NCBI GenBank assembly: GCA_947494435.1
Contig: CANLUY010000002.1
Coordinates: 1,054,001 to 1,118,000 of the forward strand
Direction of reading: 5' to 3'
Source: an uncultured Litoreibacter sp.
GTDB lineage: Bacteria; Pseudomonadota; Alphaproteobacteria; Rhodobacterales; Rhodobacteraceae
Length of the DNA stretch: 64,000 nucleotides
Below the pieces are notes generated by a model, which worked only from the letters and a program-made list of their open reading frames with translations, did no database searches and had not been told where the DNA came from. The position numbers were made by a program, and so were the translations under genes. Within the stretch, counting starts at the first letter, position 1. Each line of letters begins with the position of its first letter. Positions 3,392 to 31,179 of this stretch are shown here, piece by piece.

Positions 3392-3632
3392 GGTTGGCGT
3401 GTCATTAGCAAAGGTCGCAGAGGGATGCGAGGCAAAAATTGCGTCAAAAGGTAAGGTATTCCACCGCTAGATGACACAAAGTCCCGAAATGATCCCGACA
3501 TCGCCCGCAATCTGGCACAGGTCTGCCCAGATTGTGCCTCAATTGACGAAGAAATTAACTTCTATTGAAACACTAGTCCGGTGATTGCGTCGTCTGCCAA
3601 CACGCTTTCAATTGTTCCGGGGGGGAATAAAA

Positions 3633-4103
3633 ATGACTGATACCAAATTACAGACAGGTCTTCTTGGTGGCTGCAATGTGCTGACCATGAAAGGTTATGT
3701 ACCGATCTCCGAACTGAATATCGGAGACCGCATTATCACACGAAATGGTTTGCGGGTTCTGCGCGAACTGTCCGTCACCACTCACACATTCCGAGCAATA
3801 TCCGTCGGGAAAGGAACGTTGGGTTACTCGCGCCCGACAACAGAGATGCTGATGGCACCTGATCAGGAAGTCATGGTGCGCGACTGGCGCGCCGAAGTGC
3901 TCTTTGGCCGTGACGCTGTTATCATTCCGATCGAGCGGATGGTCGATGGGAAGTATATTGCTCAGAAAGAAGAGCTGACAGACCACAGCGTCTATGAACT
4001 GCGCTTTGATAGCGAAGAAGTGTTCTACGCCGATGGTGTCGAAATAATCTCGAAGCTTACGGTCTCCTCGGAAGAGGAACTGGATATCGCTGAAGCAGCT
4101 TAA
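3633..4103 (+). CDS. Stand-alone Hint_2 (hedgehog/intein-type) domain protein
   Basis: 156 residues from the ATG at 3633, which follows a G-rich ribosome site (GGGGGGGAATAAAA); the longer reading from 3585 has no such site. The body is one Hint fold: GGCNVLTMKGYVPISELNIGDRIITRNG has the usual Cys-x-x-x-T start and the loop before GD, and TEMLMAPDQEVMVRD is the block with the expected His replaced (MAPDQEV where hedgehog-type proteins have TPDHLV-like residues). The end, FADGVEIIS-like, matches the Hint_2 C-terminus found at the end of many Roseobacter secreted proteins. Here nothing is attached. Autoprocessing activity is doubtful. Function unknown. Confidence 0.8.
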   Translation: MTDTKLQTGLLGGCNVLTMKGYVPISELNIGDRIITRNGLRVLRELSVTTHTFRAISVGKGTLGYSRPTTEMLMAPDQEVMVRDWRAEVLFGRDAVIIPIERMVDGKYIAQKEELTDHSVYELRFDSEEVFYADGVEIISKLTVSSEEELDIAEAA

Positions 4104-6290: not shown

Positions 6291-7340
6291 CTATCCGGTC
6301 AGCGCCGTCCCGCTTGGCGACACAGTATCGCCAGTTCCCGCGTCCAAACCATCCTCAAATTCCGGCGCAGCAATGGCAGCGGGCTTAACCTTTCCTTCGG
6401 GTATGACGGCCGCTGCCGGATTGACCGGTGCAAGGTGCGACGATTGCTCTGGTTTCGAATTCCTGCCAAAAACCTTCGTCAGCTTGGCAGCCCTAGCGCC
6501 ATTGAATTGACCAAGCCGCGCTTTGGCGAAGGGGTGGCCGTTGCAGTCTTTCAATGTCACCTGCTCCAACGCAGACCTTGGGATATGAAATACCGTTCCC
6601 ACGTCCAAACTCATAAGAACCCCGGCAGTTGTCTGGCACCCTTCTAACCAGGTTTCTAACTCGACCGGACAATCCTCGAGTAACTCAATCATTTGCGGAT
6701 TTTTCGGCCTAATTTTCGGTCGCGCGGCTTGCTGCGCGACAGCCTTTGCCCACAACTCAAATTTTCCAGTCTTTATCCCGGGCCCCATATCAATCTCGGC
6801 CTCAAAAACATCGTAGCGCCCCTCCCCCAATGCCAGACGTAAAGCTGCGCGATCCTGCTCTGCGCAGTTGAATGTCAGGTCTTTGAACTGCCCCGTTGCT
6901 TCCGCCCCAAGTCCTGCCAAGACAGCTTTGACAAATGGTTCGCTCAGACCTGCATCTATGCTGGTAACCGGGCGATCAAGGCGTTCCGTTGGAAGCACGT
7001 CGCCCAGCAATTGCTGTTCGATCAACCCATCAATCAGAATGCCATCGAGAACAAACAAAGCCGCGGCATCACCGGCAGCATTCAACAACATCGGCAAAGC
7101 TATTTTGGGCATCGCGTCCAGCGCTTCGGGGGCAGACACTTGTTTCCCGGTCAGGCCCGCGACTTTCACGTCCATAGCAAAGCTGGATTTGCACACTTTA
7201 CGCAGCACGCGATCCAATTCGTCTTGCCACCAAGCAAGACCAGGACCAACCACAGGCGCGGATGGGCGCATCTTTTTGCGCAATATGTCGGCGGTGCTGC
7301 TCAATTCATTGATTTCTTTGGGTACCTCAAGTGCGCACAA
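6291..7340 (-). CDS. FliM-like protein with SpoA (FliM/FliN C-terminal) domain
   Basis: 349 residues from a TTG at 7338-7340. Residues 95-150 resemble the FliM middle domain (LIDGLIEQQLLGD, then LDRPVTSIDAGL, like the R-x-x-T-x-I-E helix). Residues 221-288 form a SpoA domain: CPVELETWLEG, LMSLDVGTVFHI, then ARLGQFNGARAAKLT. The tail after 290 is Pro/Ala-rich. The CheY-binding LSQxEIDxLL motif of true FliM is absent and no other flagellar gene is near. The gene follows the transporter-kinase stop by 26 bp on the same strand. The start is uncertain: TTG codons at residues 13 and 20 and ATG at residue 24 are alternatives. A switch-like scaffold role in this signalling operon is inference. Confidence 0.72.
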   Translation of the reverse strand: MCALEVPKEINELSSTADILRKKMRPSAPVVGPGLAWWQDELDRVLRKVCKSSFAMDVKVAGLTGKQVSAPEALDAMPKIALPMLLNAAGDAAALFVLDGILIDGLIEQQLLGDVLPTERLDRPVTSIDAGLSEPFVKAVLAGLGAEATGQFKDLTFNCAEQDRAALRLALGEGRYDVFEAEIDMGPGIKTGKFELWAKAVAQQAARPKIRPKNPQMIELLEDCPVELETWLEGCQTTAGVLMSLDVGTVFHIPRSALEQVTLKDCNGHPFAKARLGQFNGARAAKLTKVFGRNSKPEQSSHLAPVNPAAAVIPEGKVKPAAIAAPEFEDGLDAGTGDTVSPSGTALTG

Positions 7341-7366
7341 CCTGCATTAATTTGGTTTACATAAGG

Positions 7367-10039
7367 TTATGCTGCATCCGCGAGACGTTTGCGTGGCAAA
7401 CTCACGCGGAACGCCGTACTCCCTTGCCCCGGAAGATAAACAACTGTTCCACCAAGCCGTGACATGACTTCCCGACAGATAGCCAATCCCAACCCGGCAC
7501 TTCCCGCTGAAGAATGGTCGCTAAGCCGCGCAAATTTCTCGAAAATAATACCTTGCTGATCGCGCGGAATCCCTGATCCGTTATCAACGAAGTCAACATC
7601 AATTCCATCACGGCTTTCAGAAACCGATATGTTCAGGACAGGATTTTGCGCATCACAATACTTCTGAGCGTTTGAGATCAAATTGATGAAAACTTGACTT
7701 AGACGGTCGATGTCCGTGTGAAGAGTAACCTGTTCATCAGCCTTGTTGCGATGGACGACGATCCCACCTCGTTCTGCACCGGCTGATGAAATCGCACGAT
7801 CCAACACATCCGACAACACGGCTGGCTGTTTGTTCAAAACGACTTGTCCGCTTTCGAGGAACGATAAGTCCAAAAGTGCGTCTAGCAGCCTTGTGAGGCG
7901 GATACTCTCATCATGAATAATCGTCGAGTATCGGGCGCGATCTTGCGGTTGCATCTCGCACTCCATCAGAAATTCCGAGAAGGACCGGATTGAAGTCATG
8001 GGCGTGCGCAGTTCGTGACTGACCTGAGAAAGAAACGCATCCTTTTGAACGGATAGTGCAGTCAGTTTCTCATTGGCATCTCGCAACTGCCGCGCTGTCT
8101 GTTCCAGCTCTTTTGACTTCGCTTCCAATTGATTGGAATATTCCAGCATCTGTGCGGACTCATCTGCCACGGCCAACAAGTCTTGAACCGACACGGCCGC
8201 GTTGCCATCAATCTGGCGGACCATCGCATGCGCGGTTGCGGCGCCAACAGAACCAGCCAGCTCGCGCTCTAATACCGCAACAAACTCAGGCGTTGGATCG
8301 GGCAAATATCCTGATTTGCCCTGCTGCTGTGCAATAGTCTGGAACAGCCGTTGCGCCTCAAGCCCACCAAGCAGGCGCTGCGCCATAACAAGCAAATCCT
8401 CGGTATCGGCGATCCCGCGGACATAGCCTGTACCAGCTTCGCCGCGATTGAACACATTAACAAAAGCCGCACCTTGCAGCCGCTCAAGCGGGCTGGGGAA
8501 TGTGACCAGAGAAACAGCGATAAAGGCAATGGTATTGGCAGCCATTGACCAAAAGATCGAATGTACGAGCGGATCAAGCCCCGTCAGACCAAATAAAGCC
8601 TGTGGCCTCAACCAAGCCAGCCCGAATAAACCAGTTTCGAGAATGGCATCTGGCAGCAAGCCAATCGCTGGGACAAACAACGTGTAGCCCCAAACCGCAA
8701 AGCCTATAACCAACGAAGCCAAAGCGCCTTTCCGCGTCGCTCCCCGCCAATACAACGCTCCCAGCAAAGCAGGGACAATCTGTGCAATCCCGGCGAAGCT
8801 GACTAACCCGATCGACGACAGAGCCGCAGAACCACCGGTGATACGGTAATAGGCATAACCAAGCGCGAGAACCACGACGATCGAAACTCTGCGTGACAAG
8901 ATCATGATATCTCGGACATCGCCCGAGATCGTTGCCCGAGGACCTTGCGACGATAACCAGAGCGGCAGTACGATATGATTGGAGACCATCGTGCTCAAAG
9001 CAATTGCGGCCACAATCACCATAGAAGTGGCGGAAGAAAACCCGCCCAAGAAGGCCAGCATGGCCAGCATTTCTTGATCAAGTGCCAGCGGAACAGTGAG
9101 GACAAACAGGTCTGGGTTAGAGTTCTCGGGCAAGACGGCCAGACCGACGACAGCAATGGGTAAGATGAATAAGCTCATCGCCAGCAGGTAAAGCGGGAAG
9201 GCCCAGCTTGCGATTGTAAGGTGCCGTTCATCTTCGTTCTCAACGACCATTACCTGAAACATTCGAGGCAGGCAGATGATTGCAGCAGCAGACAAGAAGG
9301 TCATCGTGACCCACCGGCCAGCGTCCGGTTTCCACTCTGCCACTGGGCTGGCCTCAATCATTTGCAGCATATCGCTCATGCCGCCCGACACACCCCAGAT
9401 CACAAAAATACCGACTGCCAGCAATGCGATCAGCTTGACTATGGCCTCTACCGCAATCGCTATGACCACACCGTGGTGACGCTCGTTCGTATCGAGGTTT
9501 CGCGTACCAAACAGGATCGTAAAAACAGCAAGGCCCGCCGCAACCCAAAAAGCGGTCGCGTTCAGATCTGGAGGAATTGCATCTGATCCCTCTGGGACAA
9601 ACGCCGCGAAACTGAGGGTTACCGATTGCAATTGCAGCGCGATGTAAGGCGTTGTTCCTGTCACTGCGAGGCATGTCACCAAGACTGCCAGAGCCGTTGA
9701 TTTACCGTATCGGGAAGAAATCAGGTCGGCGATAGATGTGATACGTTCTGCGCGTCCGATACGGACAAGTTTGCGAAGCAGAACCCAAAAGCCAAGAAAA
9801 ACGAGAGTCGGCCCCAAGTAAATCGCAAGATATTCGAGCCCTGATCGCGCGGCATTGCCAACCGCACCGTAAAATGTCCATGCGGTGCAATAGACACTCA
9901 GGGACAATGTATAAGTGAGTGGTGAGCGAAGCCATTTCGCTCCGCCATTGCGTGCACGGCGATCCGCAAAGAACGCAATCGCAAATAAGATGACAACGTA
10001 AGCAAGTGCGACCGTGACCAGAATATTGAAGGTCGGCAC
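7367..10039 (-). CDS. Hybrid sodium:solute-symporter / histidine kinase (CrbS/CbrA-like)
   Basis: 890 residues. Residues 1 to about 520 are an SSS (PutP-like) transporter domain with about 13 membrane helices. After a linker and a coiled coil (about 620-660) comes a HisKA domain with LSQVSHELRTPM, phospho-acceptor His675, and a HATPase domain with NLISNAQKYCD (N box), DNGSGIP (G1) and GSAGLGLAI (G2). Relatives CbrA and CrbS control carbon use; CrbS controls acs in Vibrio and Pseudomonas. Start GTG at 10037-10039, with GAGGA eight bases upstream, 3 bp after the stop of the small membrane protein. No PAS or receiver domain. The substrate is not visible; acs 7.5 kb away suggests a carboxylate. 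Confidence 0.9.
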   Translation of the reverse strand: MPTFNILVTVALAYVVILFAIAFFADRRARNGGAKWLRSPLTYTLSLSVYCTAWTFYGAVGNAARSGLEYLAIYLGPTLVFLGFWVLLRKLVRIGRAERITSIADLISSRYGKSTALAVLVTCLAVTGTTPYIALQLQSVTLSFAAFVPEGSDAIPPDLNATAFWVAAGLAVFTILFGTRNLDTNERHHGVVIAIAVEAIVKLIALLAVGIFVIWGVSGGMSDMLQMIEASPVAEWKPDAGRWVTMTFLSAAAIICLPRMFQVMVVENEDERHLTIASWAFPLYLLAMSLFILPIAVVGLAVLPENSNPDLFVLTVPLALDQEMLAMLAFLGGFSSATSMVIVAAIALSTMVSNHIVLPLWLSSQGPRATISGDVRDIMILSRRVSIVVVLALGYAYYRITGGSAALSSIGLVSFAGIAQIVPALLGALYWRGATRKGALASLVIGFAVWGYTLFVPAIGLLPDAILETGLFGLAWLRPQALFGLTGLDPLVHSIFWSMAANTIAFIAVSLVTFPSPLERLQGAAFVNVFNRGEAGTGYVRGIADTEDLLVMAQRLLGGLEAQRLFQTIAQQQGKSGYLPDPTPEFVAVLERELAGSVGAATAHAMVRQIDGNAAVSVQDLLAVADESAQMLEYSNQLEAKSKELEQTARQLRDANEKLTALSVQKDAFLSQVSHELRTPMTSIRSFSEFLMECEMQPQDRARYSTIIHDESIRLTRLLDALLDLSFLESGQVVLNKQPAVLSDVLDRAISSAGAERGGIVVHRNKADEQVTLHTDIDRLSQVFINLISNAQKYCDAQNPVLNISVSESRDGIDVDFVDNGSGIPRDQQGIIFEKFARLSDHSSAGSAGLGLAICREVMSRLGGTVVYLPGQGSTAFRVSLPRKRLADAA

Positions 10040-10042
10040 CTG

Positions 10043-10300
10043 TCAGTCCTCGTCACTCTTGGCCACATGCCGCACCAACATAGCGCAAATCACGATCAGG
10101 CTGACCCAAGCTAAAAAGAAATAGACGAGGCGTAAAGCCGTGGAGCCGCTTTCCTCGGCCAAGATCAGCGGTGGCAACAGAAATAACGCGGCCCCCAAAA
10201 CCGGAAGAAGCTTCAATGCATCAATCGCACGCCGACGCCGATAAACGCTCTGTTCTAAGAACTCCGCCCGCTGCTCTGGGGTGCGAGACATCTGCGTCAT
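10043..10300 (-). CDS. Small membrane protein between receiver and kinase genes
   Basis: 85 residues. A basic, helical N-terminus of about 30 residues (EQRAEFLEQSVYRRRRAI) is followed by two hydrophobic segments (about 31-49 LLPVLGAALFLLPPLIL and 56-76) and a short charged tail. The ATG at 10298-10300 overlaps the TGA of the receiver gene (ATGA), and its own TGA is 3 bp before the kinase start, so translation of all three is coupled. I do not recognise the family. Small membrane partners are common beside SSS transporters (DUF485-type), and a helper of the kinase is the natural guess. Confidence 0.8.
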   Translation of the reverse strand: MTQMSRTPEQRAEFLEQSVYRRRRAIDALKLLPVLGAALFLLPPLILAEESGSTALRLVYFFLAWVSLIVICAMLVRHVAKSDED

Positions 10301-10695
10301 ACGGCGTCTTTCGAAACAACAGGCTTGCGCCCCTTGGACAGATCACGAACGGTCTGTAGCATCTCTGAATTCGAAAACGGTTTGGTCATGAAGGAACTTA
10401 CGCCATAGCCCTCCGCGAGCTCGCGATCCTTTGTTTGGCCTCGCGCTGTCAGCATCAGAATTGGCAAATCGGGGCGTGCAGCGCCTTGGCGTAACTCCCG
10501 AAGTATATCAAACCCGCTGCCACCCGGCAGCATAACATCCAAGATGAGGACATCGGGATCATTTGCGACCACAGCGTCTACTGCGCCCTGACCTTCTGTA
10601 TGAAGGCGCACGGTCCAGCCGTCGCGCTCCAAAAGGAAGCTTATCGCCTCGATAATATTTGGTTCATCTTCGATGAGAAGTACTGATTGTCCCAA
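10297..10695 (-). CDS. Single-domain response regulator (CheY-like receiver)
   Basis: 132 residues, one receiver domain and no output domain. Acidic pocket Glu9-Asp10, phospho-acceptor Asp53 (DVLILDVMLPGG), Thr83 (LMLTARG) and Lys105 (FMTKPF) are all present, so it should be phosphorylated. It is the first gene of the operon that contains the SSS kinase, its likely partner. CrbR and CbrB of the best-known relatives carry DNA-binding output domains, so this one must act through protein contact. The FliM-like protein of the same operon is a candidate, since FliM is a CheY target. Confidence 0.92.
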   Translation of the reverse strand: MGQSVLLIEDEPNIIEAISFLLERDGWTVRLHTEGQGAVDAVVANDPDVLILDVMLPGGSGFDILRELRQGAARPDLPILMLTARGQTKDRELAEGYGVSSFMTKPFSNSEMLQTVRDLSKGRKPVVSKDAV

Positions 10696-10781: not shown

Positions 10782-12071
10782 TTAATTCCGCCCCGTCAGA
10801 ATTGACGCCTCACGGCGGGCTCCACACTCTTCCGCGGCGCACATACGGCAGGTACTTCCAACCACTCGCCCCTCGTCAACCGGCGGATCTGCCGAAACAA
10901 GCAGCATATGCGACTTTACGTTCAATGGCGCATCAAATTCTACGCGTTCTTGCAATGTTGCTACGGAATACGACTTGAACACGGCGCCTTCAACTGTTTT
11001 CAAGGTCGTCCTTTGAGGCGCGCCAATTGAGCGCATCGCCCCGAACAACGGCCAGAGCGGACAGGCCGCACCGAACCTTGGGAAAGAAAAACCTAGAGGT
11101 TGCTTTCGCAACAAAATCGCACCAGCGGCGTCACAGATCACCAATCCAATCTCTGGCCTATCTGGTGCCCGCGGCAAGGTGGCCAACCGACGGAAAACAC
11201 GGGGAAGACCGACATCGAAAGCACGTGCTATCGCAGCAGGATCATAATTATGCTCAGTCGCGGAAATCGAAAACTCATTCAATGGCAAGCGCGCCGCGTC
11301 TTTAGCATACACACTCAGCGCTTTGCGCCCCAGTGAACGCGCAGCAGCTCCTTCAAATTCGGGGGCGTTCGCCAAAATACCCTCGACGGCCTCCCGTCCG
11401 CCTTCCTCCAATTCTGCAATGTGAAACTGTCGTATCTCGAAAAAGGCGGCGATCGCTTCGAGTGGCGTTTTGTAGCCAGCTTCGTCTTTCGTAAGTTGAT
11501 CGAAATGGGCCGCCATGGATTCTGATGTTTCCGCCAACCTGCGGCTTTCCACGTCAATATTGGCATGAAACCTTGCCCGCCATTCGGCATCAATTGTTGG
11601 AGTGTCGACAAGGATAGATGACGTTGACCTGATCGCGGCGACAGCTCCTAACACATCATGCATCTTCTCTGTTAGAACGGGATCATGCGTGAGGCGATCA
11701 TTCAGGCCGCGCAGGCTACGCTCGAGTAGGTCGATCCGTTCATTCTGATCCGTCAATTTAGCAGCCCAGCCCGGAAAGCGACCCACAAATTCCTCTACAC
11801 GGTCCGCTTCGACTGAAGGCGACTGGGAAGCAACTGTTTCTAGGCCGTGCACCAATTCAACATCTGCGCCCTCGCTCAGACCCGACGGCTCAACACCTAA
11901 AACGTCTGCAATTTGGACCAGTAGTTTTCCACCGATTCTGCGGCGATTATGTTCAATCAAATTCAGATAGCTCGCAGACACGCCTGCTGATTTTGCCAGA
12001 TCCGCCTGCTTTAGCTGCAGTGCCAGCCTTCTATCTCGAATGCGGGAACCAGTTAGAGCGATCTTGGGCAC
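10782..12071 (-). CDS. XRE-family regulator of the short-chain fatty-acyl type (RamB/ScfR-like)
   Basis: 429 residues. The N-terminal HTH (residues 6-60) reads IRDRRLALQLKQADLAKSAG, then SASYLNLIEHNRRRIGG. The middle is helical; about 190-290 corresponds to the ImmA/IrrE-like domain but has no HExxH, so no peptidase activity is expected. The C-terminal part resembles DUF2083 and ends with a Cys cluster (CRMCAAEECGARRE). RamB and ScfR control acetate/propionate genes. The GTG at 12069-12071 follows AAGGGA. It is transcribed away from the ABC-acs cluster and shares the 219-bp gap with it, so it probably controls that cluster. Confidence 0.85.
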   Translation of the reverse strand: MPKIALTGSRIRDRRLALQLKQADLAKSAGVSASYLNLIEHNRRRIGGKLLVQIADVLGVEPSGLSEGADVELVHGLETVASQSPSVEADRVEEFVGRFPGWAAKLTDQNERIDLLERSLRGLNDRLTHDPVLTEKMHDVLGAVAAIRSTSSILVDTPTIDAEWRARFHANIDVESRRLAETSESMAAHFDQLTKDEAGYKTPLEAIAAFFEIRQFHIAELEEGGREAVEGILANAPEFEGAAARSLGRKALSVYAKDAARLPLNEFSISATEHNYDPAAIARAFDVGLPRVFRRLATLPRAPDRPEIGLVICDAAGAILLRKQPLGFSFPRFGAACPLWPLFGAMRSIGAPQRTTLKTVEGAVFKSYSVATLQERVEFDAPLNVKSHMLLVSADPPVDEGRVVGSTCRMCAAEECGARREASILTGRN

Positions 12072-29905: not shown

Positions 29906-31179
29906 GTCTCTGCCCACGCATCACCGAACACATCATCTGTGACCGCTGACAGTGCCAAAGCGGCAGCCCCGCGCGCCCAAACGAAACCGCCCCAAAAGTT
30001 GATATCTATCTCGGGCCCAGGACGTCCTTTATCCAGCGTGAGTGTGCCCATTTCAGACAGCACTTCTTCGGCATAAAGATAGTCATACCGCATCCGCTCC
30101 CCCGACAAGATAATCAGGCTGGGATCGAAAAGATGCACCACATTGCTCAACGCGACAGACAAATAGCGGCCCGCCCTTCGAAAAATCGTGCGTGCGCGTT
30201 CATTTCCAGCTTTTGCCTGATCATAAAGTGTTTCTAGCAGCACATGAACTGGGCCGAATTGCTCACTTTTCATGTCGAGCGCGATACGCGCTTCGCGCAC
30301 CAAAGCGTAGTCCGCAACATACGCCTCGAGACAGCCACGATTGCCACAACGGCACAGCGCACCATCCAACTGCACCTTCGTATGTCCAAGCTCCAATCCC
30401 AGACCACCTGACCCTCGGTACAACCTATTGTCCAAGACCAGCCCCATCCCAACACCGTATTCGATTGTGACAACGGCAAAGGACTGTTTGTTTCGCCCCG
30501 CTCCAAACCAAAGCTCAGCAAGGGTGAGAACATTGGCATCATTATCAATGAAAACGGGCAATTTTAACGTTTCGGAAAGCCTGTCACGAAGCGGCACATT
30601 CCGCTCCGTAAGCAACGGTGACCAAGGAACAAGACCTGCTTCGTGGTCCACAATGCCTGCCAAGCCAACGCCAACAGCAGAAATATCAGCCGTAGACAGC
30701 CCAGCTTCGGCGACAAGCTTGTCAAACAGATGCTTCGCTTCCGCAACCAAACCTTCTAAGTCATGCTTCTGCGACATCGATTGCGCTTCACATTCAGAGA
30801 ATGGGTTGCCCGCAAAGTCAACGATTACTGCGGAATGGGTGAAGTCACCCAGCTTCAAACCAACGACATACCCAGCACCCGGAGCAACAGCGAGTGCTAC
30901 AGGCGGCCGTCCTCTTGTGCTGCTTTCATGGGGGGTTTCCGCCTCGACAATCAATCCATGCGCGATAAGCTCAGACGTGAGTTGGGTCACAGAACCAGGC
31001 GAAATCCCAAGGTCTTTCGCAACGTCAATTCGAGGCGTTTGTCCCGCCGCACGGACACGCTCAAAAATCTGCTGCCTGAGTGGTTTTGCCATTGCGCTTT
31101 CAGACGGAAGTACCGGACCGCAGCCGGCATCTTCAAGCAGGCCTGTTGTGTTGCGCTGCAGCATTTCTTTTGTTGCCAA
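29902..31179 (-). CDS. xylR: ROK-family transcriptional regulator, probable xylose repressor
   Basis: 425 residues. An N-terminal winged HTH (about 34-80, LRQQIFERVRAAGQTPRIDV then SPGSVTQLTSELIAHGLI) is joined to a ROK sugar-kinase-like domain (about 95-410) with the zinc motif CRCGNRGCLEAY and FIDNDANVLTLAELWFGAG. ROK regulators of this layout (XylR) repress sugar genes until the sugar binds. It is divergent from xylF, with a dyad between them, which supports xylose control. The ATG at 31177-31179. Its stop overlaps the UnbV start, which is odd for a repressor. Confidence 0.85.
   Translation of the reverse strand: MATKEMLQRNTTGLLEDAGCGPVLPSESAMAKPLRQQIFERVRAAGQTPRIDVAKDLGISPGSVTQLTSELIAHGLIVEAETPHESSTRGRPPVALAVAPGAGYVVGLKLGDFTHSAVIVDFAGNPFSECEAQSMSQKHDLEGLVAEAKHLFDKLVAEAGLSTADISAVGVGLAGIVDHEAGLVPWSPLLTERNVPLRDRLSETLKLPVFIDNDANVLTLAELWFGAGRNKQSFAVVTIEYGVGMGLVLDNRLYRGSGGLGLELGHTKVQLDGALCRCGNRGCLEAYVADYALVREARIALDMKSEQFGPVHVLLETLYDQAKAGNERARTIFRRAGRYLSVALSNVVHLFDPSLIILSGERMRYDYLYAEEVLSEMGTLTLDKGRPGPEIDINFWGGFVWARGAAALALSAVTDDVFGDAWAET

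Follow-up and report, generated by a model that had tools for sequence, protein, structure and literature searches.

Gene arrangement of the locus

Within the window (the whole 64-kb stretch of DNA that was analysed) five genes of the minus strand lie one behind the other, with a CtrA-like site between the last two (Table 1). An earlier note on this DNA had described four coupled minus-strand genes; the open reading frames of all four were confirmed in place, and the overlap of the receiver gene with the 85-residue gene (4 bp) and the gap between the latter and the kinase gene (3 bp) were found to be correct. The fifth gene, the XRE regulator with ScfRs domain, lies upstream of the receiver gene and is the first of the conserved block. 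The gap between the kinase gene and the gene of the SpoA protein, put at 26 bp in the note, is more likely 62 bp, since comparison with homologues (M-SSTADILRKK; M-xxxxxVLRRK in relatives) favours TTG 7304 as the start of the FliM-like protein. Searches of the genome for FliM, FliMN_C, FliG, FliF, FlhA and MotB gave no further match in the window, in agreement, as far as these families go, with the remark that no flagellar genes are near. Apart from the block, an open reading frame of 172 residues at 3585-4103 (+) adjoins frames that read as glnB and glnA; from its translation it resembles a Hint/intein-type domain.

Table 1: Features of the locus; positions are those of the window.
Feature	Position	Strand	Remarks
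FliMN_C protein, very probably fliM (divergent; relocated in the simplest reading)	6291..7340	-	FliMN_C E 2.8e-9; AlphaFold model; profile 1.5e-27
CtrA-like site (TTAA-N7-TTAACC type)	7351..7370	-	in the kinase-fliM gap, overlaps the kinase stop codon
SLC5/STAC-type sensor histidine kinase (CbrA/CrbS kind)	7367..10039	-	GTG start; HisKA + HATPase_c
85-residue two-helix membrane protein, CbrX-like by position and hydrophobic pattern	10043..10300	-	
Stand-alone receiver, PhoB-like, without output domain	10297..10695	-	TTG start; Response_reg E 1e-24
XRE-family regulator, ScfRs C-terminal domain (RamB-like)	10782..12071	-	HTH_3 + PF09856

Signalling genes

His675 of the kinase and Asp10, Asp53, Thr83 and Lys105 of the receiver are all present. 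The kinase had been called an SSS kinase: Pfam finds no SSS domain, and the SLC5-STAC unit was recognised by a profile of 9 kinases that matches PDB 10ED over positions 3-612 (E 1.4e-93), the solved SLC5-STAC structure of Pseudomonas CbrA with bound CbrX (PMC13022988, available text). The SLC5 domain is thus joined via STAC to the kinase core (HisKA and HATPase_c by Pfam); no PAS domain was found by Pfam. No response regulator with DNA-binding output adjoins the kinase; in its place stands the lone receiver of 132 residues, the best PDB match of which is the PhoB receiver (E 2.7e-21). The 85-residue protein gave no sequence match to PDB chains and no Pfam family at 0.001; it agrees with CbrX in position and in its hydrophobic stretch (a loose test), and, as sequence homology to CbrX is absent from the PDB search, the assignment is one of likeness. 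The XRE regulator scored 109 bits with the NCBIfam RamB model, under the 700-bit cut-off of the latter. Together the signalling genes probably form a two-component system that senses carbon, the ligand of the kinase probably being a carbon source or a short-chain acid; the XRE regulator is a candidate for its output.

Distribution of the kinase-fliM linkage

The survey comprised 120 genomes of the family, one per genus. The kinase was found in 107/120 (E<=1e-100) and a match to the FliM alignment in 110/120, other FliM types being included through their SpoA domain. fliM stands directly behind the kinase gene in 83/120 genomes; the co-occurrence of SSS-kinase and SpoA genes is not confined to this genome, and adjacency at this frequency argues that the arrangement is not due to chance. 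Regulator, receiver, hairpin, kinase and FliM are all in line in 81/83 operons, the exceptions being G091 (contig end) and G116 (regulator not recognised within the extracted stretch); between kinase and FliM lie 19-235 bp (median 76), and an open reading frame with a hydrophobic stretch lies between receiver and kinase in 82/83 (loose test).

The remaining 37/120 genomes hold both genes apart (17), the FliM match only (10), the kinase only (7) or neither (3). All 7 kinase-only genomes (7/107) are without FliG match and 6 without FlhA. Among the 10 genomes with FliM match and no kinase at E<=1e-100, six have FliM at E<=1e-59 together with FlhA (G061, G066, G068, G077, G085, G118; completeness of G068 only 76%, of G118 only 84%). 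Twenty larger regions, including 6 from genomes in which FliM was not found and 3 from genomes that carry it elsewhere, contain the receiver (20/20), the regulator (19/20) and, by homology, the hairpin (17/20). That FliM and kinase strictly depend on one another is unsupported, each being found in genomes where the other was not.

In a second sample of 80 named loci the kinase is upstream in 63; it is not seen in 7 loci with more than 6 kb of flank and in 10 with less than 3 kb, the Pseudorhodobacter loci L109, L123 and L146 being among those without it. This sample is biased, because the loci were collected with patterns of Cereibacter-like proteins; moreover, the 120- and 49-genome sets (the latter from the named loci, see below) overlap, at least 3 pairs sharing FlhA places (G077/G168, G091/G134, G111/G144). 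Genome G051, presumably C. sphaeroides, has the kinase-linked FliM in the same operon; an identity of 95% was found for L073, a relative from C. johrii. A 2007 paper on C. sphaeroides FliM reportedly names RSP6099. At G013:C1:4299940-4302542 the kinase match falls into two overlapping pieces with an apparent frame change (of gene or assembly), behind which FliM is open.

Identity of the SpoA protein

The protein of the window is very probably the FliM of the cell's own flagellum. An AlphaFold model was obtained from an alignment of 47 sequences (window protein and named relatives; mean pLDDT 73.7, pTM 0.55); at E<=0.001 Foldseek matched 25 PDB chains, of which the best 16 are all FliM (8umd_C 1.7e-9; 3soh_A TMt 0.66), spanning structures of the entire C-ring as well as of the isolated middle domain, the remaining 9 being FliM, FliY, CheC-like or CheX (chains judged by titles, chain letters and lengths). 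The fold is that of a CheC-like middle domain with a C-terminal SpoA domain; the placement of the domains relative to each other is poorly fitted (rmsd 18-19 against whole FliM). Alignment by hhalign of 30 kinase-linked proteins with 7 FliM of flagellar clusters covered 286 columns at 99.8% and E 1.5e-27, the N-terminal xVLxRK motif included. These 7 homologues (G001, G004, G008, G015, G017, G074, G083) all match PF02154 and PF01052, and each adjoins apparent motB or flgE genes; Pfam confirmed CheA in G017, and in G001 MotB together with an FlgE-type protein. PF02154 gave no match over cut-off for the window protein, and none at E<=0.01 for the kinase-linked clade (0/30 and 0/47; 0/77 member scans, the window protein counted twice).

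In a tree of 37 sequences (22/83 kinase-linked, 7 flagellar-cluster and 8 other FliM of the family, rooted on 3 of these others) the kinase-linked and flagellar-cluster FliM were placed together (0.99); within this group the kinase-linked proteins form one branch (0.98), and the 8 others fall outside. A single relocation of fliM, out of the flagellar cluster, is the simplest reading of this tree. The earlier note had named grouping of the SpoA gene with a complete flagellar cluster elsewhere in the genome as a finding that would speak against its own reading, a phospho-relay ending on a SpoA scaffold; such grouping was largely observed, with the flagellar-cluster FliM of relatives. The conserved link on which the relay had been built, that of the FliM-like protein with the SLC5-type kinase, the receiver and the tiny membrane protein, is supported; the non-flagellar scaffold as its end is not supported and was rejected as the leading reading, since fold, profile and tree all point to FliM.

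Flagellar genes of the own genome

The genome (3.89 Mb, 99.97% complete) has a flagellar cluster on a contig other than that of the window, with FliP, FliN, FliF and MotA (Pfam); FlhA was found also. MotB lies about 250 kb from the cluster on the same contig, followed by genes that read from their translations as flgE, flgK, flgL and flgI; the place beside motB that is used for fliM by some relatives is taken here by an unrelated gene. The contig of the window carries an orphan FliG near 1.26 Mb. The partners FliG, FliN and FliF are thus all present in the genome; PF02154 FliM was not found in it, and FliMN_C is confined to two proteins, FliN and the protein of the window.

Terminal peptides of the kinase-linked FliM

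The usual CheY-binding peptide at the FliM N-terminus is of the EIDALL type. Its lack, already pointed out in the earlier note, was borne out: the N-terminus reads MSSTADILRKK, that of relatives xVLRRK, and a loose pattern of this conserved, unusual motif (xVLxRK) matches 65/83 kinase-linked FliM. EIxxL[AL]G occurs within the last 75 residues in 15/83 (0.03 expected by shuffling). The C-terminus of L020, L021, L024 and L030-L033 ends in about LSxEQAAxEIxxLAGL, which resembles the N-terminal LSxxEVDALIxGL of other FliM (L039, L040, L041 in part); a CheY peptide may have been relocated to the opposite end of FliM. At least 2 DLP motifs are found in the last 130 residues of 23/83 kinase-linked FliM (compare the DLPDLPDLP runs of L018).

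CtrA-like site before fliM

When the 170 bp preceding fliM were searched for motifs, TTAA-N7-GTAACC emerged; it differs by one base from the full CtrA site of Caulobacter, TTAA(N7)TTAA (PMC6180460, available text). With a weight matrix trained on the same gaps as were scored, the window sequence included, the site was found in 75/83 operons (over the 99th percentile of kinase-internal controls; shuffled sequences 3.4%); 65/75 sites begin 51-80 bp before the fliM start codon and 71/75 overlap the kinase-fliM gap. Before the kinase start it was found in 0/82 and in further upstream stretches in 1/82. Out of sample, the regions upstream of fliG in 20 selected FlhA-positive genomes were over threshold in 13/20, against 5/249 stretches of equal length (320 bp) from inside the kinase. 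Exact TTAA-N7-TTAA was found before fliM in 0/83 operons, and the element is for this reason regarded as a variant of the published site; with one mismatch the count was 13/83 (two control sets gave 0 and 0, and shuffling predicts 1.2).

The site in the gap of the window scored 17.2 bits and is one of two over 15 bits in the 64 kb, the other being at 30564-30583 (+; 17.0 bits). Elsewhere in the genome, 13.7 bits were obtained in the fliF-fliL gap and 11.9 bits directly before the longest fliG frame; 19.5 kb around the flagellar cluster contain 6 sites over 12 bits, only 1 of them in the fliF-fliL gap and 5 outside it. In C. sphaeroides, CtrA turns on the Fla2 genes, fliM included, according to the accessible part of PMC7277832. 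Given the site in its 62-bp gap, transcription of fliM probably goes with that of the flagellar regulon, under CtrA; read-through from the kinase operon is possible.

Genomes without FlhA

FlhA was not found in 20 genomes, all 20 of which are also without FliF. FliG and a gene matching the FliM model are kept in 11/20 (10 kinase-linked; not so in G074), and no FliN was found in these 11; 9/20 have neither FliG nor rhodobacterial FliM. The frames of FliG and kinase-linked FliM are open, with FlhA, FliF and FliN not found, in G032, G036, G041, G050, G055, G070, G078, G100, G115 and G117. Of the 80 named loci, 50 were submitted to the FlhA search and 49 searched; FlhA is missing in 5/49 named genomes (completeness not given), of Tabrizicola, Cypionkella and Gemmobacter, beside FlhA-bearing congeners.

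Rates were taken relative to the kinase for 9 of the 11 keepers of FliG and FliM (G074 and G115 left out). FliG is faster in these 9 genomes than in 20 FlhA-positive ones (p 0.013); for FliM, compared with 28 positive genomes, the difference is not significant (p 0.21). On selection in flagellum-less genomes the relative-rate test is therefore mixed. A codon test on the same 49 genomes, with mostly saturated pairs, gave medians of 0.44 (820 FlhA-positive pairs) and 0.41 (207 pairs with an FlhA-negative member); among the pairs listed, for two closer ones with an FlhA-negative member dN/dS was 0.18 (L090-L091) and 0.10 (L105-L119), for the closest positive pairs 0.09-0.18. As flagellar loss looks sporadic and FliG evolves faster in FlhA-negative genomes, FliG and FliM are more likely remnants there of a recent loss of the cluster.

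Interpretation

It is very likely that the locus consists of a kinase module behind the last gene of which the fliM of the own flagellum settled once, and that fliM is still under flagellar control. Two modules would then share one stretch of DNA, the XRE/ScfR regulator, receiver, CbrX-like hairpin and SLC5/STAC kinase on the one hand and fliM on the other; FliM would be the switch protein of the C-ring, partnered by the orphan FliG and by the FliN that the flagellar cluster encodes. In an ancestor shared by many of the family's genera the gene would have left the flagellar cluster for a place behind the kinase gene; it would then have diverged until the Pfam FliM model no longer matched it, and kept its flagellar control through the CtrA-like site in the 62-bp gap. 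Against this account, 10/120 genomes keep the kinase-linked gene though FlhA and FliF are gone; the missing PF02154 match and CheY peptide, the P. inhibens screen without fliM in its table and the departure of the CtrA-like site from the published form also speak against it. The retention of both FliG and FliM in 11/20 FlhA-negative genomes, with open frames and neither FliF nor FliN, would fit a FliG-FliM pair that has a task outside the flagellum and outlasts it; this is very improbable, because the losses are sporadic (5/49 named genomes), FliG is faster, and remnants of recent loss explain the data.

The conserved gene order suggests some benefit, a candidate for which is extra FliM made by read-through while the kinase operon is on. 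The protein could also be a true FliM whose place behind the kinase is a historical accident without any regulatory meaning; we regard this as possible, though the lesser prospect. The 17 genomes that hold both genes apart (7 without PF02154 match, some of them perhaps contig breaks, e.g. G098 and G114, and 10 with one) and the 7 named loci with long flank and no upstream kinase are in its favour, and adjacency kept in 83/120 genera is against it. Conversely, the place might carry a signal: the kinase would phosphorylate the receiver, the phospho-receiver would bind FliM, and carbon status would directly brake or switch the motor, beside CheA-CheY or instead of it. Such a relay is consistent with the five-gene order in 81/83 operons across genera, with a receiver lacking an output domain and keeping Asp53 intact, and with the conserved xVLxRK N-terminus (65/83) and C-terminal EIxxL[AL]G (15/83) of FliM; it is nevertheless unlikely, as the receiver is present in 20/20 larger regions, including the 6 without FliM found and the 3 with FliM elsewhere, FliM is kept in genomes where the kinase was not detected, the receiver is PhoB-like and fliM has a separate CtrA-like site. 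Equally unlikely is the more specific form, in which the phospho-receiver would dock on FliM via the VLRRK-type N-terminus or the C-terminal tail, so that the carbon source throttles or stops the motor directly, by a wiring made through the single move of fliM. Such docking would give the flagellar switch a second input, one that does not pass through the chemotaxis kinase CheA.

Relation to published work and to known systems

The analysis points to the probable gene of this FliM, and the divergence of the protein would account for its escape from profile searches. The most common flagellum type of Rhodobacterales, fla1, was inventoried in 2025, and the outlying genes named in the accessible text are fliG and CP1 (PMC12363192); FliM occurs in the main text of that paper once only, in a reference title. 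The available text of the same source has no fliM in the table of impaired-motility genes from the transposon screen of P. inhibens, the first library of which hit only 44.6% of genes, two mutants being needed for genes outside the cluster (PMC12363192). In the literature searched (a limited library) no description of the kinase-fliM linkage was found; published already, for C. sphaeroides and D. shibae, is a fliM that lies away from the cluster. The conserved operon allows a direct test of whether nutrient sensing is linked to the rotor switch, and the FliM termini suggest that in a C-ring protein other conserved ends can stand in for the known CheY peptide.

In C. sphaeroides (Fla2; PMC7277832) and D. 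shibae (PMC6473078) fliM and fliG lie outside the flagellar cluster, as far as the available text of both papers goes. The orphan fliM of these species is like the present one in standing apart from the cluster; it differs in that linkage to a kinase is unmentioned in the same parts of the two papers. With FliM in general the kinase-linked protein shares the fold and the C-terminal SpoA domain; it differs in having no PF02154 match and, instead of the usual CheY peptide, the N-terminal xVLxRK motif. The signalling genes resemble CbrX-CbrA-CbrB of Pseudomonas in the SLC5-STAC-HisKA-HATPase make-up of the kinase and in the two-helix hairpin protein encoded immediately upstream; here, however, no PAS domain was found, a lone receiver replaces the AAA+/HTH response regulator, and the genes are flanked by the XRE/ScfR regulator and fliM. 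The CbrX peptide of Pseudomonas was dispensable in the growth tests given in the available text of two papers. With CrbS/R and RpuS/R, which are tied to acetate or pyruvate control (PMC9100948, available text), the locus has the SLC5/STAC kinase in common, whereas its receiver stands alone.
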